Below are positions 6,264 to 16,020 of a DNA stretch of 40,782 nt, one piece after another (position 1 is the first letter of the stretch; every line of letters begins with the position of its first letter). The translations under genes and the position numbers were made by a program. Where the stretch lies: the NCBI RefSeq assembly GCF_014696385.1, contig NZ_JACJQB010000031.1, forward strand, positions 1-40,782, read 5' to 3'. The notes beneath the pieces were generated by a model that did not search any database, had not been told where the DNA came from, and was given only the letters and a program-made list of their open reading frames with translations. The DNA is from Pseudanabaena mucicola FACHB-723 (GTDB lineage Bacteria > Cyanobacteriota > Cyanobacteriia > Pseudanabaenales > Pseudanabaenaceae).

Positions 6264-7367
6264 GTGATTGATACCCGTCTCGATCTTTACCCTGCCTCTA
6301 CAGTTCCCAATGGTTGGCCCGGACTGATATGTCGCTATGCGGATTATTTGCCAGTTACAGACCAGACCCCGATCGTAACTTTGCATGAAGGCAATACGCC
6401 GCTAATTCCCGCCCTTGCCCTCAGTGAAAAGCTTGGTCGGAATATCAAAGTCTTGCTCAAATATGACGGACTCAACCCCACAGGCAGCTTTAAAGATCGC
6501 GGTATGACCATGGCGATCTCTAAGGCAAAGGAAGCAGGATCTCATGCTGTAATTTGTGCTAGCACAGGTAACACCTCAGCAGCAGCAGCCGCCTATGCCA
6601 AACGTGGTGGGTTAAAAGCTTTTGTTCTAATTCCTGATGGCAAAATTGCATTAGGTAAATTGAGTCAAGCGTTAATCTATGGCGCTGAAGTAATTGCGAT
6701 CGATGGTAACTTTGACCAAGCCCTAGAAATTGTGAGGGAAATGTCTGAAAAGTTTCCCATCACGTTAGTTAACTCCGTCAATCCCTATCGCCTTGAAGGT
6801 CAAAAGACGGCTGCTTTTGAGTTGGTTGAAGCAATCGGCGATGCCCCAGACTGGCTCTGCATTCCCATGGGTAATGCAGGTAATATCACCGCTTACTGGA
6901 TGGGCTTTTCGCAATACTATGCTTCTGGCAAATCAACAAAACTGCCTCGGATGATGGGTTTCCAAGCAGCAGGTTCAGCACCTTTGGTGACAGGGCAAGT
7001 TTTTGAAAAGCCTGAAACAATTGCCACGGCAATTAGAATTGGTAATCCTGCGAACTGGGCAAAGGCGCTCAAAGTCCGTGAAGAAAGCGGTGGCGAGTTC
7101 AACAGTGTTACTGATGTCGAAATCTTATCAGCCTACAAGTTTTTAGCAAGTGAAGAAGGTGTTTTCTGTGAACCTGCGAGTGCGGCTTCGGTGGCTGGCT
7201 TATTAAAGGTCAGCGATCAAATCCCTTCAGGAGCAACAATTGTTTGTGTGTTAACTGGTAATGGCATTAAAGATCCTGATACGGCAATCGCCTGTGCTGG
7301 CGATGAAAAACTGCACAAAGGAGTTTCCCCTGACATTACTAGCGTTGCGAAGGTAATGGGATTCTAA
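6264..7367 (+). CDS. thrC: Threonine synthase
   Basis: This 367-residue PLP enzyme converts O-phosphohomoserine to threonine. PLP-binding Lys77 sits in GSFKDRG, the substrate/PLP loop in [13 protein letters not shown] (about 100-112) and the phosphate-binding GNAGN at 203-207. Length matches the short bacterial/cyanobacterial ThrC type. The start is a GTG preceded by AGAAGAAAG; no better upstream start is seen. The gene is monocistronic, with a terminator six bases after the stop. The 236 bases upstream (6028-6263) contain no other gene. Confidence 0.96.
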
Positions 7368-7372
7368 ATAAA

Positions 7373-7404
7373 GAAAGAACCTCACGCAGTGAGGTTCTTC
7401 CTTT
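7373..7404 (+). terminator. rho-independent terminator of thrC
   Basis: AAAGAACCTCAC and GTGAGGTTCTT form a stem with a GCA loop, followed by CCTTTT, directly after the thrC stop. Confidence 0.9.
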
Positions 7405-7419
7405 TATGGTAAGTGTATC

Positions 7420-7512
7420 TTCCTCAAAGCCTGCAATGATGCGCTCTTCTCTTGTGGAGAGTTGATCACCTTGATCGAGTGCGATATCTTGCCCCAGTTC
7501 TTCTAACAAGGC
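7420..7512 (-). pseudogene. remnant of a GIY-YIG-nuclease-associated N-terminal region
   Basis: Read on the minus strand the sequence gives LLEELGQDIALDQ then LSTREERIIAGFEE. The REERIIAGFE motif resembles a conserved segment in a family of GIY-YIG nuclease-like bacterial proteins. Only about 31 residues remain. The upstream side ends at the IS5-type remnant and the downstream side at the thrC terminator. The family match is from memory and low confidence. Confidence 0.35.
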
Positions 7513-7524
7513 TAGGGCGTGTCA

Positions 7525-7690
7525 TCAATTAAGCCAGATAACGGAAGCAGTGAGATAAATAGCCCCCAGAAAATTCGTTGCCCGTTTATCGTAACGAGTA
7601 GCAATTGCTCGAAACTGCTTAATTTTAGCGAAAAAGTTTTCAATCAAATGTCGAGCTTTGTACAAATGCTTGTCATATTCCCGTTGAGGG
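7525..7690 (-). pseudogene. 3' remnant of an IS5-family (IS427-like) transposase
   Basis: On the minus strand this encodes YDKHLYKARHLIENFFAKIK, then QFRAIATRYDKRATNFLGAIYL, and ends VIWLN at a TGA (7525-7527). This is the C-terminal end of IS5-type DDE transposases, including the conserved catalytic-Glu helix (HLIENFFAKIK). About 55 residues survive and the rest is missing, replaced by DUF29-coding sequence on the other strand. GGCGTGTCATCAATT just beyond the stop could be the old IS end. Confidence 0.85.
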
Positions 7691-8010
7691 GAGTTTCGCA
7701 AAAAAAAGAGTTGCTAAATCGCTTAATCACTTTGTTAGAGCATTTACTCAAGCGAATTTATGTGTCTTTACCCAATGATTACAACGGATGGGAAAGAACC
7801 ATTCGCAACCAACGTAAAAAGTTAGAGGCGTTATTAGTGGAAGTACCGAGTTTAAAGACAAGATGGAACGTTAGTTTTAGTTCTGCTTGGAATATTGCGC
7901 TTAAAACTGTCAGGGATGAATATTCAAAAGTAGAGTTCCCTGATTCGTGGCAATTTTCATCGGATTTAGAACGAATGTTGGGTGATCGCTTTTGGCAAGA
8001 AGTCGAGTAA
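7691..8010 (+). pseudogene. DUF29 family protein, 5' end missing
   Basis: The plus-strand frame contains LNRLITLLEHLLKRIY, then GWERTIRNQRKKLEALLVEVPSLK, and ends SDLERMLGDRFWQEVE. This is the C-terminal two thirds of the DUF29 family, which is very common in cyanobacteria and of unknown function. The normal N-terminus (about 50 residues) is absent, and the frame reads back into antisense IS5-type sequence with only a GTG at 7519. The gene was probably truncated when the IS inserted or decayed. The frame might still express a chimera, but I treat it as broken. Confidence 0.75.
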
Positions 8011-8024
8011 TAAGGTGTCTGGAG

Positions 8025-8306
8025 TTAATGCGATTAGAGAGAAGCTGGCAAGTTTTGAGACGATGACTTGGCGGGAGATATTGCTGGATGCGAAGAAACA
8101 AAATCACAATGTTTCGGTGGATAAGTTAATTAAGGAGGCGCAGGAGCGTTTGCTTGAGATTTTTTCGGAGCAGTTTAGATGAGCTTACTTCTTTGAGTTT
8201 AACGGTTAAGGGAAGGGTTTGGGACAAGATTGATGAGGGGGGGATGGATTTGCTATGGTGGGACGCTGAAAATCAGATTTGTCCATCGCATAAGAAGCAT
8301 ACTTAG
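8025..8306 (+). pseudogene. frameshifted small protein ending LLWWDAENQICPSHKKHT
   Basis: One frame encodes NAIREKLASFETMTWREILL through RLLEIFSEQF and stops at 8180-8182. The neighbouring frame continues LDELTSLSLTVKGRVWDKID and ends with the LLWWD...CPSHKKHT motif at a TAG (8304-8306). Together they make one coherent protein of about 94 residues, split by a shift near 8172-8178. The MTWREI...RVW...LLWWD...CPS.KKHT layout recurs in a family of small accessory proteins of unknown function. No clear start codon precedes it and the 5' end abuts the DUF29 stop. Confidence 0.6.
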
Positions 8307-8479
8307 TTAATTAACTGCTTTAGCAAAGAGATGAGGCGCGTTACATCTCATTAAAATACCATACAAGGTTTGCTTTTATTGTAAATCTCCCCCAAGAGTG
8401 TTTTGTTAATAGTTACCCTGATCTACAATTACTTTCAAACATAAACATAAAATCAAACACTAATAGAATAGAGAAACTT

Positions 8480-8938
8480 ATGACTTTATTTACGTTGAAT
8501 AATTCCAAAATAAATGACTTAAATAGTATTGTATCTCAATGGAATGGAAAACTAATACTAAAAACGAACGTTACAAAAATTAGTTTAGATAAATTTGGAG
8601 ATATAAGCTCTATTGAAGATGAGACTATTTATCAGCCAGATTCTCAAGCGGCATTTCCATCATCGGAGCCATTTCACATTGACTCTCCAAAGATAGATTC
8701 AAATAGTTTTACTTATTATAATACTGATAAAAGTAAGACTGAATCAGAACAAATTAGTGGCTTATGGTTAGACCCACAAGGAGATTTCATGATAACATCA
8801 CCTCAACCCTTAAAAGTTGAAGTAGATGACGCTCCTTACTCAGGTGTTAGCAAAACACACTTGGTACATAGTTCTGGAATGCTAGTATTTAGGTCTGAAA
8901 AAATAGATCTTAAGGGAATAAATCAAAAGCTTCCTTAA
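8480..8938 (+). CDS. Hypothetical protein, AT-rich orphan
   Basis: A 152-residue ORF opens MTLFTLNNSKINDLNSIVSQ. It has many Ser, Asn, Asp and Lys residues and no signal peptide, membrane segment or motif I recognise. The middle part (PSSEPFHIDSPKIDSN, SGLWLDPQGDFMITSP) suggests a soluble beta-rich protein. Its codon use is more AT-biased than nearby core genes, which fits acquisition by transfer. It stands alone in a decayed region; the flanking spacers 8307-8479 and 8939-9261 hold nothing I can identify. Confidence 0.55.
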   Translation: MTLFTLNNSKINDLNSIVSQWNGKLILKTNVTKISLDKFGDISSIEDETIYQPDSQAAFPSSEPFHIDSPKIDSNSFTYYNTDKSKTESEQISGLWLDPQGDFMITSPQPLKVEVDDAPYSGVSKTHLVHSSGMLVFRSEKIDLKGINQKLP

Positions 8939-9261
8939 TCCTTGAGATCCTGATTTGCTACTAGATCCTGTTTAAAAAGTTCTAACCCTCTAAATCCACA
9001 AGCTCTGGAGGAATTTGAAAAACTTCTATGTTTTTTGTTCCCCCAGAATTGGGTATTAGAGGGTACTTAATTTCTGTCTTTGTTAGGTTTTATAACTTGT
9101 GTGGACACGGTAGTCAGACTAACGCAATGGCTATATCATTTAGCCCTATCAAAATTTCCAAACATTTTGTCCTATACTTTTGGAAGTAGTTTTGGGGTTT
9201 ACTTGCCATCAACTTTCCATAATCTGCCAGTTGTGTCCTAACTCCCTGTAGCGATGCGACG

Positions 9262-11409
9262 CTATTGACATAATCCCCATACGCTATAACATTTGCCATC
9301 TAAAGACCACAACTTGATAGTTTTATCATCACTTGCGGAGGCGATAATCTTTCCATCAGGACTAAAGGCGACGCTCCGAACAGAACCAGCATGTCCTTCC
9401 AGAGTTTGCAGTTCTTTGCCACTTAAAGACCACAATTTGACGGTGCGATCCAGACTGGCAGAAGCGATAGTTTTTCCATCAGGACTAAAGGCAACGCTAG
9501 TGACAGCATCACCATGTCCTTTCAGAGTTTGCAGTTCTTTGCCACTTAAAGACCACAATTTAATGGTGCGATCCAGACTGGCAGAAGCGATAGTTTTTCC
9601 ATCAGGACTAAAGGCAACGCTAGTGACAGCATCACCATGTCCTTTCAGAGTTTGCAGTTCTTTGCCACTTAAAGACCACAATTTAATGATGCGATCCAGA
9701 CTGGCAGAGGCGATGATCTGTCCATCAGGACTAAAGGCAACGCTAGTGACAGCATCACCATGTCCTTTCAGAGTTTGCAGTTCCTTGCCACCTAAAGACC
9801 ATAATTTGATGGTTTGATCGGTACTTGTGGAAGCGATAGTCTGTCCATCAGGACTAAAGGCAATGCTAGTGACAGGATTACCATGTCCTGTGAGGGTTAT
9901 TCCTTTGCCATACTGATATCCCAATTGGATAGTTCCATCCCTACTCGCGGAGGCGAAGATCTCTCCATCAGGACTAAAGGCAACACTAGTGACAGGAGCA
10001 TCATGCCATGGGAAACCTACAATTTGGAGTCGCTCTTTGCTATCTATAGAGTACAAATTGATGGTTTTATCATCACTTGCAGAAGCCATGATTGCGTAGT
10101 TTGGATTAAAGACAACACTATTGACAGAACCTTTATGATCTTCTAGAGTTTTCACAGATTGAAAACCTTGGATAGTTTTGACAATTTGAGGCTGTGAAAA
10201 AAGAACAATGAAAATAAGTACGATGGCTGCTATAGCTATGATAGCCAATTTTTTCTGATATATAATTAAACTCTTCCAATGGGATACCACTGAAACTGAA
10301 TTCGTAGTAGTGGGTAGTGAGTTAAATTTTGCTTGTAATGTTGATTTGCTCAGTCCTTTACCGATCGCCGCAGGTTTCAGATGTTGCCCCGAACTAATCG
10401 CACCCAACGCAGGAAACGGATCGCGTCCGCCTAACTTCACAGCCCTCTCACACCAAGGACAAACACCCAAATGTCCACTGTAAAAATGCTGACCATTTAC
10501 CCCACATCTCACCAAACCATCCTCAGCCTCACCCAACGCCTTACTCCAAACCTCCGCCGTAGGACGTGCCGCAGGATTGCTATGTCCCTCCTCAAAACAA
10601 AGCAGAAAAAGCTCCTGCAAAGCCACAGGTAACATCTGAAAAGAAGGAGCCAAAGGCATCGGCTTATAAGGAATCCCAGACCGACCATGAGGGAAATGTC
10701 CCGCCTTAATCCGCTCCTTTAGCTCAGGCGCTTCACCCTGCCCCGTAAACACTCCACCAAAAGGATGCGTCCCCTCCATCAACAACTGATAAATCAACAC
10801 CCCCAACCCAAACAAATCATGCTTCACCGAGCGATCCACATCCCGAAAACTCATGCCCTGTAACTCAGGCGGCGTATACTCAGGCTTACCCACCGTACAG
10901 CGATAAACCGTATTTCCATCATTCACCTGAAACGAATCCGTATCCACCAAAGTCACGATCGCATCATCGGCAACCAACACATTCGACTCATTCACATCCC
11001 CAATCACATAGCCCCGTGAATGCACCGATCGCACCGCCCGTGCCAAATTTCTCGCAGTTCGCATCAAAGAAATATAGCTAAATCTAGGACTTTCCTTACG
11101 TCGAGTGGAAGGATTGTAATATTGAAAAATTGGCTTTGCCTTGCTCGTATCCAGTTTGGGCATCAAAAAGCCCACCACCCGATCCAAATCCGTTACCAAC
11201 TCAGTCGCCCAAGCAATAGAAACCCTTCCCGAACTTGCCAAAGGATCGACAGGCGGATTTGCCACCATAAACGACAACTTTCGCGCATAGTCCCCATGCG
11301 GCTGATGATAAACCTTCGCTACCAGATCAGGTCTAATCCGCACTGTATAAATATTCGCCTCACCACCCGATCCAATGGGAGATTTTAAGAAAATGTAACT
11401 TTTATCCAT
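9262..11409 (-). CDS. Protein kinase with zinc ribbon, TM helix and WD40 propeller (TerY-P/YegI-type)
   Basis: This 715-residue protein has an atypical Ser/Thr kinase domain at about 1-300: Gly-rich loop IGSGGEANIY, Lys32 in VAKVY, catalytic GDVNESNVLV (D138, N143) and DTD at 156-158 in place of DFG. A Cys/His cluster follows (C302, H308, C317-P-W-C320), like a zinc ribbon, then one transmembrane helix (about 388-405) and seven WD40 blades (about 420-710). The kinase part matches the E. coli YegI type. Upstream on the same strand lie PP2C and vWA genes, forming the TerY-P/YegLKI triad, with a vapBC pair between. The WD40 domain would lie across the membrane from the kinase. The end KCYSVWGLCQ after the last blade is odd. 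Confidence 0.88.
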   Translation of the reverse strand: MDKSYIFLKSPIGSGGEANIYTVRIRPDLVAKVYHQPHGDYARKLSFMVANPPVDPLASSGRVSIAWATELVTDLDRVVGFLMPKLDTSKAKPIFQYYNPSTRRKESPRFSYISLMRTARNLARAVRSVHSRGYVIGDVNESNVLVADDAIVTLVDTDSFQVNDGNTVYRCTVGKPEYTPPELQGMSFRDVDRSVKHDLFGLGVLIYQLLMEGTHPFGGVFTGQGEAPELKERIKAGHFPHGRSGIPYKPMPLAPSFQMLPVALQELFLLCFEEGHSNPAARPTAEVWSKALGEAEDGLVRCGVNGQHFYSGHLGVCPWCERAVKLGGRDPFPALGAISSGQHLKPAAIGKGLSKSTLQAKFNSLPTTTNSVSVVSHWKSLIIYQKKLAIIAIAAIVLIFIVLFSQPQIVKTIQGFQSVKTLEDHKGSVNSVVFNPNYAIMASASDDKTINLYSIDSKERLQIVGFPWHDAPVTSVAFSPDGEIFASASRDGTIQLGYQYGKGITLTGHGNPVTSIAFSPDGQTIASTSTDQTIKLWSLGGKELQTLKGHGDAVTSVAFSPDGQIIASASLDRIIKLWSLSGKELQTLKGHGDAVTSVAFSPDGKTIASASLDRTIKLWSLSGKELQTLKGHGDAVTSVAFSPDGKTIASASLDRTVKLWSLSGKELQTLEGHAGSVRSVAFSPDGKIIASASDDKTIKLWSLDGKCYSVWGLCQ
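9418..9786 (-). repeat. three near-identical 123-bp WD40-coding tandem repeats
   Basis: Three consecutive 123-bp units (starting at 9418, 9541 and 9664) inside the kinase gene differ by only a few bases. More diverged units flank them. Each encodes one 41-residue blade of the type KELQTLKGHGDAVTSVAFSP. Identity at the DNA level points to recent duplication or gene conversion. Confidence 0.93.
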
Positions 11410-11423
11410 GTGATACTGCGCTT

Positions 11424-11813
11424 CTAGCTAATGGCTTGTAACCAAGAAAACCCTGTCAGATTTTGATCCACAGTCGCCAACGTGAGCTTGTAGAAAATAG
11501 CCGTAGCCGCAATAAATCGATCTGCAGGATCTTGATGAGGCAATGCAATTTCACGACTCAAAATCGCAATTTCATGATTTAGCACAGCTTCACGGGTTTC
11601 TAATTTCTGAAGTGACAAGTTGATCCATTCATTCGTATTAGGTTGTAAAGATATTCGCCTTTTCTCAGCGAGAATGACCGTCTCCCAAATACTAATCGGA
11701 CTTAACCAAAGCTCAGTGGTTGGGTTTGCAATCAGTGATTGTAGTTCACCAGATAGGCGATTATCTGCGAGTAAATACCATAGCCAAATATGAGTATCGA
11801 GTAAAAGTTTCAT
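11424..11813 (-). CDS. vapC: VapC-type PIN-domain toxin
   Basis: From the ATG at 11811-11813 the protein starts MKLLLDTHIWLWYLL and is about 129 residues, the usual PIN toxin size. Acidic PIN residues are visible: D6 in LLDTHIW, E in SPISIWE, and D in the DPADRFIAA segment. PIN toxins are Mg-dependent RNases. The ATG overlaps the antitoxin stop as ATGA, so translation is coupled. A longer frame starts at a TTG (11828), but the ATG is the better start. It ends 14 bases before the kinase start. Confidence 0.9.
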   Translation of the reverse strand: MKLLLDTHIWLWYLLADNRLSGELQSLIANPTTELWLSPISIWETVILAEKRRISLQPNTNEWINLSLQKLETREAVLNHEIAILSREIALPHQDPADRFIAATAIFYKLTLATVDQNLTGFSWLQAIS

Positions 11814-12061
11814 TGCAGCACTTCCCAAGCGCTTTCAGGTAATGCTGGAGCAACTATATCTCCCAAAATTTCACCACTGCCTTTCATGACACCAAAAGCA
11901 GGACGTTGATTTTGAATTATTTTAGGGTCAACATCAACCATCTCGCGTGATTTTTGCAAAGATTGAGCGATCGCACTAATTAATTCAAGGCGATCGCTTG
12001 GCGATAATTTATAAGACTGTTCTTTGAGTTCTTGTAACAGCATGAGAGTAACCTCAATCAT
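11810..12061 (-). CDS. vapB: Antitoxin partner of the PIN-domain toxin
   Basis: This 83-residue protein has an N-terminal helical part (LLQELKEQSYKLSPSDRLEL) typical of small cyanobacterial antitoxins and a C-terminal tail rich in Pro and Ala (GSGEILGDIVAPALPESAWE) that likely binds the toxin. It overlaps the vapC start by four bases. The start may be Met1 (12061) or Met7. The pair sits between the PP2C gene (ends 12100) and the kinase gene and is co-directional with both. Confidence 0.8.
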   Translation of the reverse strand: MIEVTLMLLQELKEQSYKLSPSDRLELISAIAQSLQKSREMVDVDPKIIQNQRPAFGVMKGSGEILGDIVAPALPESAWEVLQ

Positions 12062-12099
12062 TGTGAATATTTTAGTACAAGTGCTTGAGTATAATCACT

Positions 12100-12906
12100 C
12101 TAAGCCAATGAAGCCAACAGCAAAGTTAAATCATCATCTGTGCGATCGCAAACTCTCGGCGATCGCAAAAATCCTGTTAACTCCTGATGTGCCACATCCA
12201 AATCCTTTGCTTCCGCAATGAACTTAAATAGCGGTGCAAAAAATGGCGCATGAGCCACACCTTGAGGCATTTGCAAAGCAAGCATTTGCAACCCATCGGA
12301 AAACATCGCTAACTGAGCAGGTTCCCCTTCCCACAAACAAATTTGAGCCGAATCAATGCCATTAGCTGAAGTTATAAACGTGGCTAAATCTAGAGATTCC
12401 TCAATGGGAGGACTAGTTAAAGCGATCGCCGTTCCCTTTTGATTCGCAACCACAATCGCTCCATCTCCCACCTGAATCGCCGCTACAATCTCAGGAGTTG
12501 CTACTACGATTAACAATGTCGTTGATAGCTCACGCACATTCACTTGACGTGATTCCGCTTCCGTTTGAATAGCTACTAAAGCATCTTCTAAGCCACTATT
12601 AAGCAGCACTTTCCATCCTTCATCACTATCAGGAAGTGATGACTCGGCTATTTTAGAAGCAATTCCCTTTACCGCAGTCTGTACCGCCAGCAAAGATCCC
12701 ACATCTGAGAGCGAGACTGATCCTGCTCCATCTGCAACACCCGCCACTAAAATCCGATCGCCTACCACTTGCCAAAAATGAGCATCCTGACAGGGCAAAT
12801 CACGCTTTTGATGACTAGTTCCCTCAAGAGAAACTGCTACCACTGACCATTGATCGGCACTTTCTGATTTACAAGAATCATCAATATTCATCAAACTGAC
12901 ATCCAA
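12100..12906 (-). CDS. PP2C-family protein phosphatase of the TerY-P-like triad
   Basis: This 268-residue protein has the metal-binding PP2C motifs CQDAH (D41) and GVADGAGS (D59, G60). The QKRDLPCQDA entry (rather than RNEDA) is typical of the YegK-like PP2C_2 group, as is the TLLIVVATPE segment. It should dephosphorylate Ser/Thr in partner proteins, probably substrates of the linked kinase. The start lies 16 bases inside the upstream vWA gene, so the two are coupled. The final part has a D-D pair (DRTDDDLTLLL) that completes the metal site. Confidence 0.9.
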   Translation of the reverse strand: MDVSLMNIDDSCKSESADQWSVVAVSLEGTSHQKRDLPCQDAHFWQVVGDRILVAGVADGAGSVSLSDVGSLLAVQTAVKGIASKIAESSLPDSDEGWKVLLNSGLEDALVAIQTEAESRQVNVRELSTTLLIVVATPEIVAAIQVGDGAIVVANQKGTAIALTSPPIEESLDLATFITSANGIDSAQICLWEGEPAQLAMFSDGLQMLALQMPQGVAHAPFFAPLFKFIAEAKDLDVAHQELTGFLRSPRVCDRTDDDLTLLLASLA

Positions 12907-13553
12907 TCTGTAGGAGGTGCTAAAGGAACTTGTTCATCAGGCTTAGAATGGGAAACTCTCTGCATACTTGCCGATAGCCACACAAACATCTCGCGGAAAC
13001 TTAATCCCTTCAGTTTAATCGGCGATCGCACAGACATCGTTTGCAACTGATTCATATCTGTACCTTCCACACCCACCGCAAAAAAGGCAACCCGTTTATT
13101 TGTCTCCTCTTCCTTCACCCGTTGCGCCGCCTGACTCAATACATAGGCATCTTCCCCATAGGGCGCACCATCGGTAATCAAAAACACCCAAGGACGATAG
13201 TAAGTAATTCCATTATCCTTATACTCGCGCTTACGTGCTTGCAACAAATCAAGAGCTTTATTAATACCCGCAGCCGTATAGGTCAAACCCTGTGCCGTTA
13301 AAGTTGGCGTATGGAAATGTTCAGCCGTAGCAAATTCATGCTCCACGCGCACCGTCGTATCAAAAGCCACGACTGCCACTTCCACCCGTTTACTCGCCAA
13401 ATTATCCTGCAACAAGTCATCTCGAAAAGTTTGTAACCCTGCATTTAAGGCGGCAATTTTTTCCCCACTCATCGATCCAGAAGTGTCTAAAAGCAACACA
13501 CAAGGGCAACGTGGCTCTGGATTCTCCGCAAACTCGATCGCATCAAGGGTCAT
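12891..13553 (-). CDS. von Willebrand factor A domain protein (TerY/YegL-like)
   Basis: This 220-residue protein is a single vWA domain. The MIDAS metal site DTSGS is at residues 23-27 (D23, S25, S27), with a Thr loop (TYTAAGINKAL) and a later Asp (LITDGAPYGED). The sequence matches TerY/YegL proteins, the first gene of the vWA-PP2C-kinase triad known from stress/tellurite-linked clusters. It is the first gene of this minus-strand operon and overlaps the PP2C gene by 16 bases. It may present substrates or act as a switch; this is not shown. Confidence 0.92.
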   Translation of the reverse strand: MTLDAIEFAENPEPRCPCVLLLDTSGSMSGEKIAALNAGLQTFRDDLLQDNLASKRVEVAVVAFDTTVRVEHEFATAEHFHTPTLTAQGLTYTAAGINKALDLLQARKREYKDNGITYYRPWVFLITDGAPYGEDAYVLSQAAQRVKEEETNKRVAFFAVGVEGTDMNQLQTMSVRSPIKLKGLSFREMFVWLSASMQRVSHSKPDEQVPLAPPTDWMSV

Positions 13554-13650
13554 AGCACTGAAATAAACCTAAAGTATTTATAATTAAAGCATATCTAGAT
13601 AGCTGATTATCGGATAAATTTAGGAGTGCGATCGCAAATCTGTAAATCAA

Positions 13651-13687
13651 AAAGAGAAGAGAGTTGCGCCACAACTCTCTTCTCTTT
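13651..13687 (-). terminator. terminator of the ubiD-family gene
   Basis: AAAGAGAAGAGAGTTG pairs with CAACTCTCTTCTCTTT around a short CGC-containing loop, four bases past the ubiD-family stop in the minus direction. It also separates the ubiD-family gene from the vWA operon. Confidence 0.85.
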
Positions 13688-13690
13688 AAT

Positions 13691-15208
13691 TTAGCGAATG
13701 TCGTAACCAAATAAATTAGGATCGGCTCCATCTAGTTTAATATCTGCCAAACCATACTCCGCCCAGCGACGAGTTACCTTATCCGCCACCTCTGGATCAC
13801 TCTCTAAGGGATCTCCCCAATCGCGATCGGTTTCAGGATAGATTTTTGTTGTCGCATCAATACCCATTCTGCCGCCCAGACCTTCCTTTTCACAGGCAAA
13901 ATCGAGGGAGTCAAAGGGATTGTCGGGCAGGATAAAGACATCGCGAGTGGGGTCAACCTTAGAACTGAGCGCCCATACAACCATGCGTGGGTCGCGAATA
14001 TTGATTGTATGGTCAACCACAATCACAAACTTGGTGTAGGTAAATTGCGGTAGAGCGCTCCAAAAGGCGAGGGCAGCGCGGCGGGCTTGTCCGGGATAGG
14101 CTTTCTTAATGGAAATAATTGCTGCTTTATAGGACAGCGCTTCCATTGGTAAAAAGAAGTCGGTAATCTCGGAAACCTGTTGCCGCAGAATCGGTGTATA
14201 GATTCGATTTAAGGCAATTGCCATCATTGCTTCTTCTTTGGGAGGTAAGCCGCTAAAGGTAGTCAGATAAATTGGATCTTTGCGGTGAGTCATGCAATGG
14301 AAACGGATTAACGGCGCTTGGTCATTAATGCCTCCGTAATAGCCCATATGGTCGCCAAAAGGACCATCAGTACCGACCTCATGGGGAGTAATCGTTCCTT
14401 CCAAAACATATTCCGCACAGGCAGGAACTTCCAAATCAAGGGTTTTGCATTTGGTCAGTTGTACGCCTTCATTACCATAGAGACCTGCAAAAATCCATTC
14501 CGATAAATCGACGGGAATCGGAGTTGCCGCCGCCATGATTAGCACTGGATCAACGCCGATTGCGATCGCAATTTCTAGTTTCTTGCCTGCCTCAGTTGCC
14601 TTGCGTAAATGTCTTGCGCCACCTCGCACCGATAGCCATTGAACCGTCATCGTGTTTTTTGATTGCTGCTGCAAACGGTACACACCAACGTTAGGAATAC
14701 CATTCTCGACATCTTTGGTAATTACGAGCGCAAGTGTGACCGCCCTGCCACCATCCTTGGGATAGGGTTTGAGAATCGGAATCTGATCAAGATCGACATC
14801 ATCACCTTGCAAAATTACTTCCTGACAAGGAGCATTGCCAAAGAGAATCTTTTGGGGACGTGACTTGACGACATCAAAGAGAATCTTGCCAAACTCGATC
14901 GCCTGTGAAATTTTCTTCGGAGGTTTAGGGCTTTGTAGTTTGCCCAATTTTGTACCCAGCACCTCTAATTCTGACTGTTCCTTCATCCCCATTGCCCAGC
15001 AGACCCGCTCAACCGTGCCAAGCAAATTTACGGCAACGGGTGTGTTATAGCCCTTGACATTCTCAAATAGTAACGCTGGCCCTGCCGATTGCAAAAGGCG
15101 ATTGCTAATCTCGGCAATTTCTAATTCAGAATCAACTTGGGCTTTGACGCGATGGAGTTGTTTGCGTTCTTCGAGCAGCTTGAGAAAGGATCGCAGGTCA
15201 CGGGTCAT
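13691..15208 (-). CDS. ubiD: UbiD-family prenylated-FMN-dependent decarboxylase
   Basis: From the ATG at 15208 the protein is 505 residues and starts MTRDLRSFLKLLEERKQLHR. It shows UbiD features: ENVKGYNTPVAVNLLG, the DGPFGDHMGYYG region with acidic catalytic residues, and the C-terminal region DATTKIYPETDRDWG. UbiD decarboxylates aromatic acids. In cyanobacteria the likely role is 4-hydroxybenzoate-derived quinone synthesis (plastoquinone), by inference. A TTG 24 bases upstream is a weaker start. It is monocistronic with its own terminator. Confidence 0.93.
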   Translation of the reverse strand: MTRDLRSFLKLLEERKQLHRVKAQVDSELEIAEISNRLLQSAGPALLFENVKGYNTPVAVNLLGTVERVCWAMGMKEQSELEVLGTKLGKLQSPKPPKKISQAIEFGKILFDVVKSRPQKILFGNAPCQEVILQGDDVDLDQIPILKPYPKDGGRAVTLALVITKDVENGIPNVGVYRLQQQSKNTMTVQWLSVRGGARHLRKATEAGKKLEIAIAIGVDPVLIMAAATPIPVDLSEWIFAGLYGNEGVQLTKCKTLDLEVPACAEYVLEGTITPHEVGTDGPFGDHMGYYGGINDQAPLIRFHCMTHRKDPIYLTTFSGLPPKEEAMMAIALNRIYTPILRQQVSEITDFFLPMEALSYKAAIISIKKAYPGQARRAALAFWSALPQFTYTKFVIVVDHTINIRDPRMVVWALSSKVDPTRDVFILPDNPFDSLDFACEKEGLGGRMGIDATTKIYPETDRDWGDPLESDPEVADKVTRRWAEYGLADIKLDGADPNLFGYDIR

Positions 15209-15277
15209 AAAAGTTTGGTGGCGCTTGGGCAATTGGTCAGTAACCTATTGTAACTAAATGTTACGTTGATCAAACCC

Positions 15278-15322
15278 AAAAAAGATTAGAGTCGATGCAA
15301 TGCACCGACTCTAATCTTATAG
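15278..15322 (-). terminator. second copy of TPR-gene terminator
   Basis: AAAGATTAGAGTCG and CGACTCTAATCTT form the stem, with a T-rich tail on the minus strand. It is the duplicate of the hairpin at 15497-15541. Confidence 0.8.
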
Positions 15323-15493
15323 CCCTAACCTCTTGGCATATTCACAGTCAGCATTTGCGCTCTCAGCATCTCCCAGTTTTGCCTTGGCTAAACCACGATT
15401 AAAATAGGCAGGAGAAGCGTCGGGGGCAAGTTCAATCACTTTGTCATAGTCGTTGATTGCACCTGCATAGTCCTCTAGCTCAGAGCGATCATA
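15317..15493 (-). pseudogene. duplicated 3' fragment of the TPR gene
   Basis: The 58 C-terminal codons of the TPR protein, including its stop, are repeated here without a start. The fragment lies downstream of the intact gene and after its terminator, so it is unlikely to be expressed. It arose from the 219-bp tandem duplication. Confidence 0.9.
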
Positions 15494-15496
15494 CCC

Positions 15497-15541
15497 AAAA
15501 AAGATTAGAGTCGATGCAACGCACCGACTCTAATCTTATAG
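15497..15541 (-). terminator. terminator of the TPR gene
   Basis: The hairpin AAAGATTAGAGTCG ... CGACTCTAATCTT lies right at the TPR stop codon, with a T-run on the minus strand. Confidence 0.85.
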
Positions 15542-15859
15542 CCCTAACCTCTTGGCATATTCACAGTCAGCATTTGCGCCCTCAGCATCTCCCAGTTTTG
15601 CCTTGGCTAAACCACGATTAAAATAGGCAGGAGAAGCGTCGGGGGCAAGTTCAATCACTTTGTCATAGTCATTGATTGCACCTGCATAGTCCTCTAGCTC
15701 AGAGCGATCATAGGCACGGTTGTAATAGGCTTCGGCGTAATTAGGATCAAGAGCAATCGCTTCTGTATAATTTGCGATCGCACCTGCAAAATCTTCTTGC
15801 TCAGCAAGTTCCATGCCACGCTGGTTATAGGCTGATGCGGAATCAAGTTTGTCCGTCAT
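15536..15859 (-). CDS. Small tetratricopeptide repeat protein
   Basis: From ATG 15859 the protein is 107 residues and is almost entirely three TPR units: AYNQRGMELAEQEDFAGAIA, AYYNRAYDRSELEDYAGAIN and AYFNRGLAKAKLGDAEGANA. TPRs mediate protein-protein contact; no partner can be named. There is no signal peptide. A TTG nine bases upstream is a weaker start. Its 3' half is duplicated downstream (15317-15493). Confidence 0.85.
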   Translation of the reverse strand: MTDKLDSASAYNQRGMELAEQEDFAGAIANYTEAIALDPNYAEAYYNRAYDRSELEDYAGAINDYDKVIELAPDASPAYFNRGLAKAKLGDAEGANADCEYAKRLGL

Positions 15860-15913
15860 TGCTTTCAAAAATAGTTACTGGCTATGATTTTCTTCTAAGA
15901 TACAAGATGCGAG

Positions 15914-16020
15914 GTCTGTTAAGCAGTTTAGTATGAGTAAACTGAAAATCCAGAAGCTTGTGTCGCCCGCGTAGCGGGCGACACAAGCTCTGGTTGTTAA
16001 CTATGCTGAACTGCTTAGAC
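15914..16020. mobile_element. MITE-like element with palindromic core
   Basis: The ends are imperfect inverted repeats: left GTCTGTTAAGCAGTTTAGTA, right (reverse complement) GTCTAAGCAGTTCAGCATAG. The core is a palindrome (CAGAAGCTTGTGTCGCCCGC GTA GCGGGCGACACAAGCTCTG, about 15951-15992). It is 107 bp, non-coding, and ends 28 bases before ictB, so it may shape the ictB 5' region. Confidence 0.65.

Follow-up and report, generated by a model that had tools for sequence, protein, structure and literature searches.

We analysed a 40,782-nucleotide stretch of DNA from Pseudanabaena mucicola FACHB-723 (NZ_JACJQB010000031.1), called the window below, to which all coordinates refer unless another locus is named; L and G numbers denote other loci and genomes. 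On its minus strand, from 13553 to 9262, open reading frame (ORF) calls give the genes of a vWA protein, a PP2C phosphatase, an antitoxin-like protein, a PIN-domain protein and a kinase (Table 1). ORF calls and Pfam confirm that these five genes run in one direction, where a sequence-only reading of this DNA had placed them. The spacings claimed around the toxin–antitoxin (TA) pair also hold on the sequence, with 38 bases from the PP2C stop to the antitoxin ATG and 14 bases from the PIN stop to the kinase ATG. Sequence inspection gives the ATG at 12891, which has one base in common with the vWA stop (TGATG), as the likely start of the PP2C gene, and the ATG at 11813, overlapping the antitoxin stop, as that of the PIN gene. 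We found that the kinase consists of a constant part, the kinase domain and zinc ribbon in residues 1 to ~345, and a part that differs among Pseudanabaena relatives, and that the gap between the PP2C and kinase genes is a second place of turnover, holding various TA genes. The triad itself is known; its degree of modularity is new.

Sequence comparisons with E. coli K-12 support homology of the window triad to yegL-pphC-yegI. YegL and the vWA protein share 55% identity over 220 residues (E 3e-78); the phosphatase is 37% identical to PphC (YegK; E 5e-43), and the kinase core 37% identical to YegI (E 3e-60), with the alignment ending in the zinc ribbon. The catalytic residues K32, D138, D156 and D158, together with the presumed zinc ligands C302, H308, C317 and C320, are invariant in an 11-row alignment that includes YegI residues 1–328, and the C-H-C-C zinc-ribbon pattern is common to the window kinase and YegI. 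The earlier assignment to the yegL-yegK-yegI and TerY-P triads is borne out by these matches, including the resemblance of the kinase to YegI. The two loci share the three families, their order and strand, the zinc ribbon and hydrophobic segments after the kinase, and the pphC-yegI gap is also polymorphic in E. coli, holding yegJ in K-12. They differ in that the YegI tail, which we take to be helix-hairpin-helix, is kept within the species and has no WD40 match, and in that the window gap holds a TA pair instead of yegJ. A search for the order vWA, PP2C, kinase on one strand found it in 122 of the 166 loci examined; among the others, L056 has a different order and the rest have no match for at least one gene in the stretch read. 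The same three genes are adjacent on one strand in the window, with the TA pair interposed. Within the phylum, the kinase is matched at E ≤ 1e-20 in 89 of 386 genomes, and in Pseudanabaena biceps O153 (L140) the triad contig is annotated as a plasmid. No solved structure was found for the kinase family, the 60 best of 318 matches being eukaryotic kinases, nor was one found that matches the vWA protein.

Seven kinases of the genus have an open frame, those of the window and L039–L044. Six of them are 91–94% identical to one another over the first ~345 residues and 72–74% identical to the seventh, and this homology ends after codon ~343–351. Beyond it, the seven proteins carry six kinds of tail. 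The window tail consists of a transmembrane segment and WD40 repeats; L039 has a membrane segment only, L042 four membrane segments, L040 an FGE-sulfatase domain (E 1.8e-46) followed by membrane helices, and L043 a transmembrane segment and a Pilin_GH domain (E 4.6e-23). In L041 and L044, a transmembrane segment is joined to a related, unnamed module that has no Pfam match (45% identity over 110 residues). None of the eight relatives' tails matches that of the window at E ≤ 1e-3, and the propeller occurs in no genus relative's copy of the kinase. Because the tails differ from this codon on and no relative has WD40 repeats, these comparisons show the propeller to be this strain's current cassette in an exchange slot. 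At the DNA level, five loci lose their homology to the window at 10358, one at 10364, and two at 10381 and 10382; homology resumes past the kinase gene at 8305–8367 in four loci and at 8149–8174 in two.

We compared cores and tails in 158 kinases, leaving out five loci on duplicate contigs and identical proteins. Among pairs with at least 90% core identity, the tails can be aligned over 60% of the shorter one in 0 of 15 pairs within the genus versus 300 of 303 elsewhere; the latter are mostly Nostocales with a conserved TPR tail, because one search supplied the best 80 hits, and the pairs are not independent. This comparison, the lack of matches to the window tail and the tree described next led us to reject the idea that the genus lineage has WD40 as its fixed tail. 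In a tree of 92 rows, obtained by a quick search and containing several long branches, eight module labels require 18 changes, and WD40 alone requires 8. The tree leaves out the broken loci L047, L052 and L138, the distant L056 and L057, L121, which has its kinase at the C-terminal end, L119 and L120, which gave no kinase match, and L137, which lacks an ORF. Eighteen rows have no module label. Manual decisions were made for L135, which was left unlabelled, and for L041, L043 and L044, which were assigned their labels; the labels for WD40, TPR, FGE and PQQ come from small profiles built out of these same sequences. A second clade shows a smaller exchange hotspot, for example in the sisters L105 (TPR) and L132 (WD40). 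As a control, the N-terminal part of yegI was found in 5348 and the C-terminal part in 5358 of 5426 E. coli genomes (at least 80% cover). Our literature searches returned no recognised description of tail exchange in YegI-type kinases.

Three other tails have unusual architectures. The kinase of L112 (G356) ends in at least five tandem FGE-sulfatase-like domains, a type of domain known as a target of diversity-generating retroelements. In L115 (G106), the repeats after one transmembrane segment resemble a PQQ-type propeller, a label given by eye and by a profile of its own repeats. L103 (G329) has two kinase cores in tandem in one frame, followed by seven WD40 repeats and two transmembrane segments.

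The sequence-only reading described the window kinase as extended by a transmembrane helix and a complete seven-bladed WD40 propeller, and this description is correct: Pfam gives seven WD40 matches in the C-terminal part, and the propeller, folded alone, forms a confident seven-bladed ring of 27 strands with a predicted local distance difference test (pLDDT) score of 84.5 and a predicted template modelling score (pTM) of 0.84. Compared with the five best solved propellers, its template modelling scores are 0.83–0.91 (query); the solved matches include the Thermomonospora WD40 domain (5yzv) and a highly repetitive propeller. PkwA of Thermomonospora is likewise a kinase with seven WD40 repeats. 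The full-length kinase model is poor (mean pLDDT 65.5), with a helix at 388–403 and a first blade that is not well modelled. The 84–95% DNA identity of blades 3–6, with a 123-base period, indicates that these blades multiplied or were homogenised recently. The whole genome contains 96 WD40 repeat matches.

WD40 repeats are fused to YegI-type kinases at further loci, and their position relative to the membrane segment varies. The transmembrane segment precedes the repeats in the window, L045, L083, L089, L093, L094, L099, L109 and L126; the repeats come first in L103, L104 and L108, lie on both sides in L107, and occur without any transmembrane segment in L110, L132 and L136. A location of the propeller outside the cytoplasmic membrane is thus predicted, and plausible, for the window protein and is not general to the class. 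The earlier idea of a sensing triad that displays its propeller across the membrane keeps this plausibility for the window kinase, but it does not describe a stable version of the triad, as the closest relatives have other tails, nor a property of the class, as another clade has WD40 before or without the membrane segment. It is very unlikely that the propeller is a long-standing sensor of the kinase lineage, held outside the membrane: the first arrangement above, the completeness of the propeller and a supported WD40 clade of L045, L083 and L093 would fit such a sensor, but WD40 is absent from the open kinases of all six genus relatives, the WD40 label needs its 8 changes on the tree, and two of the arrangements above have the repeats before the membrane segment or have no membrane segment. 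For the genus copies at hand, this explanation is largely refuted.

Similar kinases and triads have been described. TerY-P triads are defined by a TerY-like vWA protein, a PP2C phosphatase and a Ser/Thr kinase with a C-terminal zinc ribbon (PMC11090510), and a case is reported in H. pylori (PMC4978471). The window has the same three components, but TerY-P triads are described together with tellurite resistance and DNA-processing or restriction genes, and no ter, DNA-processing or restriction genes were recognised among the few window neighbours scanned, namely UbiD, DUF29 and one unknown ORF rather than the whole window. As C-terminal additions, the passages on TerY-P name a zinc ribbon or an OB fold and mention no further exchange of modules. 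In PADLOC, the vWA and PP2C proteins matched no model up to E 10 and the kinase matched general kinase models only, the presence of a TerY-P model in that set being unchecked. Actinobacterial sets reported in PMC7159879 place an active kinase, often with a zinc ribbon or transmembrane segment, beside a PP2C and a lone vWA protein, together with GAP1-N2 GTPases. According to the same source, the vWA proteins of close relatives can differ in their C-terminal domains; the variable part is there on the vWA protein of MoxR systems, whereas in the window genus it is on the kinase. In cyanobacteria, Ser/Thr kinases with WD40, TPR or DUF323 tails are reported (PMC2176072); they resemble the window kinase in this combination. 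Different from these, the window tail sits on a zinc-ribbon kinase within a vWA-PP2C triad and varies between kinases that are 92% identical. We take DUF323 to be the FGE-sulfatase domain. In polymorphic toxins, a constant N-terminal part carries exchangeable C-terminal tips, and the genus kinases are like them, by analogy only, in the sharp breakpoint and in the differing C-terminal cassettes of close relatives. Scans of the tails of the window, L040, L041, L043 and L044 kinases recognised no toxin domain.

The turnover of the PP2C–kinase gap was followed in ten genus loci (the window, L039–L044, L047, L052 and L119); the distant second triads L050 and L051, with gaps of 93 and 26 bases, and the lone G021 vWA gene (L120) were left out of the count. 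In the window, the PIN-domain protein (PF01850) and the small overlapping antitoxin-like gene upstream have the arrangement of VapBC, with the antitoxin-like protein giving sub-threshold matches only (DUF1804, 0.0039; TIGR02574, 0.001). The complete pair is present in two of the ten loci, the window and L039. Antitoxin sequence without PIN is found in four, accompanied by DUF5615 in L040, Uma2 in L042, a YafQ-type gene in L044 and NTase/HepT-like genes in L119. Three loci have a different VapB/VapC-like pair, L041 as scanned and L043 and L052 by similarity; the L041 pair matches VapB and VapC models below the NCBIfam cut-offs. In L047, where the triad is broken, no TA genes were recognised in the gap, which gave one DUF2281 hit below cut-off. 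The homology borders of the gap lie at 12104–12107, at the PP2C end, and at 11409–11411, at the kinase start codon. Beyond the genus, we found in this gap a PemK-like gene in L069, FitA-, BrnA- and NTP-transferase genes in L112 and L113, a YoeB toxin gene on the opposite strand in L130, and HNH genes in L123 (scanned) and L124 (by similarity). In E. coli K-12, yegJ (NC_000913 2151185–2151646) occupies the same gap; of 5426 E. coli genomes, 1914 have a match to the yegJ region, whose location was not checked in each, and 5363 have one to pphC. yegJ, located between pphC and yegI, is reported to be present only in K strains (PMC13232886). Eight Microcoleus/Oscillatoria-like loci (L145, L158, L161, L164, L170, L178, L205 and L214) have 2.5–4.7 kb with several other genes between PP2C and kinase. 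Over 134 loci the gap has a median of 60 bases, at most 300 bases in 101 and more in 33. The vWA–PP2C gap exceeds 300 bases in 5 of 121 loci, and no TA genes were seen by eye in the three of these that were opened (L109, L113 and L130), of which L113 and L130 are broken PP2C frames; the gaps of L164 and L190 were not among the three. We found no recognised description of TA turnover in this gap in our literature searches.

The embedded PIN/antitoxin pair of the sequence-only reading is real in its position, but its integration into the triad is not supported: the check for its absence in close relatives goes against integration, with a complete pair in two genus loci only. As a conserved operon member, the pair was rejected on this count, on the other TA genes in the gap, and on PIN proteins elsewhere; 4 of 25 genus genomes encode, at sites apart from the triads, a protein of 68–88% identity to the window PIN protein (with an in-frame stop in one copy), and the window genome has 17 PIN matches in 3.96 Mb. 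A functional role within the triad, for example with the PIN ribonuclease as an output released or activated by the kinase, is highly improbable, being at odds with these findings and with the short median gap. It would account for the tight spacing on the same strand in the window and L039, and for the long presence of TA genes that antitoxin sequence in four other genus loci implies, and it has a parallel in YegJ, which comes from the same gap in E. coli and is reported to interact with RNase E (PMC13232886). Most likely, the window TA pair is a passenger, and the gap a permissive one. The simplest reading is that TA genes enter the gap and replace one another, the PIN/antitoxin pair being an early resident; because antitoxin sequence remains in four further loci, the pair is older than a casual passenger.

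The gap genes might also be an addiction anchor that guards a dispensable, exchange-prone operon from loss, whatever the kind of TA. We regard this as rather unlikely. Differing TA genes in one gap, in the genus loci and in L069, L112, L113 and L130, speak for it, as does G001, which has no kinase and has the NTase/HepT-like pair beside an antitoxin remnant. However, most triads have a short gap (101 of 134), any site that tolerates insertion may come to collect TA genes, and several gap residents are single or truncated and unable to addict. In G001 (L119, 7012–10384), the vWA and PP2C genes are kept, no kinase is found, and next on the opposite strand come the NTase/HepT-like pair and a gene for a ResIII/HNH helicase.

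We consider it probable that the locus encodes a YegL-PphC-YegI-type signalling triad whose kinase has a constant and an exchangeable part and in which the TA pair is a passenger. Several observations weigh against this explanation. Only 10 of the 26 genus genomes searched give a kinase-core match at E ≤ 1e-15. Of these, G007 (which also has a distant paralogue) and G018 carry broken copies, and the sole match in G001 is a paralogue of 41% identity; the vWA and PP2C proteins of G001 are 95 and 91% identical to those of the window, with no kinase match beside them. The triads of G007 and G018 are broken, the vWA protein of L040 has no counterpart of the first 48 residues, including the metal-binding motif, and that of L044 is interrupted by an in-frame stop. 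The tails are not wholly separate: L040, L042 and L052 have a membrane-helix end in common (38–70% over 79–124 residues), L041 and L044 share their module, and several tails share short linker pieces. In E. coli, the C-terminal part of yegI is kept yet more divergent than the N-terminal part. A single hydrophobic stretch is the basis for orienting the propeller. A close donor of the WD40 cassette was not found in 25 genus genomes, the best long match being 72% over ~700 bases, with shorter pieces higher, among the matches listed (12 candidates scored per genome); a recent donor within the genus was rejected on this basis, and because no donor was found, recombination is inferred from the breakpoints and was not caught.

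Because some relatives have damaged triads, decay is a competing explanation. In its general form, with tail and gap under no selection in the genus and collecting junk, it seems unlikely: the broken triads, the damaged vWA genes and the tails of L039 and L042, which are membrane helices only, are what it would produce, but six genus kinases retain open cores at 91–94% identity, the WD40, FGE-sulfatase and Pilin_GH tails pass curated cut-offs, and the window propeller folds as a complete seven-bladed domain. A full-length vWA match is present in five of the seven genus loci with an open kinase (the window, L039, L041, L042 and L043). L040 (G013) carries two vWA-PP2C-antitoxin sets in tandem, of which the upstream one, at 12969–14719, is degenerate.

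In a signalling triad of this type, the kinase domain and zinc ribbon would be cytoplasmic, with one transmembrane segment and a binding module beyond the membrane. The membrane-anchored kinase may read a binding event through its C-terminal module, in the window a propeller that would bind a peptide or protein and is predicted to lie outside the cytoplasmic membrane, and binding would change kinase activity. The kinase would then phosphorylate itself and cytoplasmic targets, the vWA protein may bind a peptide or metal and link the kinase to its target, and the PP2C phosphatase would reset the kinase, as PphC is reported to dephosphorylate YegI (PMC13232886, citing Rajagopalan et al.). Cassettes could be replaced by recombination between conserved flanks, that is, between the kinase core and the downstream DNA and between the PP2C end and the kinase start, while the TA pair would ride in an insertion-tolerant gap and perhaps help to retain the locus. 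Tail exchange suggests that the input or partner changes between strains and that the output stays constant. A more far-reaching version is rather unlikely: a rapidly re-armed recognition receptor, with its cytoplasmic signalling half kept and its recognition half exchanged between strains as a cassette, through recombination in conserved flanks, and a gap that docks TA modules tying the operon to the cell. If so, the target recognised would change fast, as in polymorphic toxins or immune receptors, and may be phage, competitors or kin.

YegI-type kinases are widespread, and to our knowledge their signal has not been established. With a constant core and wholesale replacement of the presumed input half, the genus offers a natural experiment in domain swapping; the tails indicate the kinds of things that such a kinase can listen to or bind, and chimaeras are directly testable. 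The same variation cautions against assigning a fixed function to the WD40 tail or TA pair of one strain.

Table 1. Features of the triad locus in the window.
Feature	Position	Strand	Remarks
vWA protein, YegL homologue	12891..13553	-	motif DTSGS; PF00092 E 2.4e-12; 55% identity to YegL
PP2C phosphatase, PphC/YegK homologue	12100..12891	-	PF13672 E 2.2e-44; 37% identity to PphC
Antitoxin-like protein of 83 residues, partner of the PIN protein	11810..12061	-	sub-threshold family matches
PIN-domain toxin-like protein	11424..11813	-	PF01850 E 1.2e-14
Kinase of 715 residues: core, zinc ribbon, transmembrane segment, WD40 propeller	9262..11409	-	seven WD40 matches
TA slot, PP2C 3' end to kinase start, content variable among close relatives	11410..12106	-	
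YegI-type kinase core with zinc ribbon, residues 1–345, conserved	10375..11409	-	
Presumed zinc ligands C302, H308, C317, C320	10450..10506	-	invariant in 11 aligned kinases including YegI
End of DNA homology to eight genus kinase loci, start of exchanged C-terminal cassette	10358..10382	-	
Predicted transmembrane helix, residues ~388–406	10192..10248	-	hydropathy
Seven WD40 repeats	9304..10161	-	Pfam matches
C-terminal module and ~900 bases downstream, without counterpart in the compared genus triad loci	8368..10357	.	
Strong hairpin of 17 pairs with T-rich tail, after the upstream ubiD-like gene	13651..13687	-	consensus match only

Because the strong hairpin, a consensus match only, separates the upstream ubiD-like gene from the vWA gene, the triad probably starts its own transcription unit. 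Promoter-like sites are near background (10 found versus 8.4 expected), and terminator-like sites number 9 versus 4.2 expected. A search of 7000–16000 against Rfam gave no RNA family at gathering score. Just 3' of the kinase gene, at 8981–9113, lies a sequence of ~133 bases that has many copies across the genus genomes, mostly at 75–80% identity, and is perhaps a small dispersed repeat.

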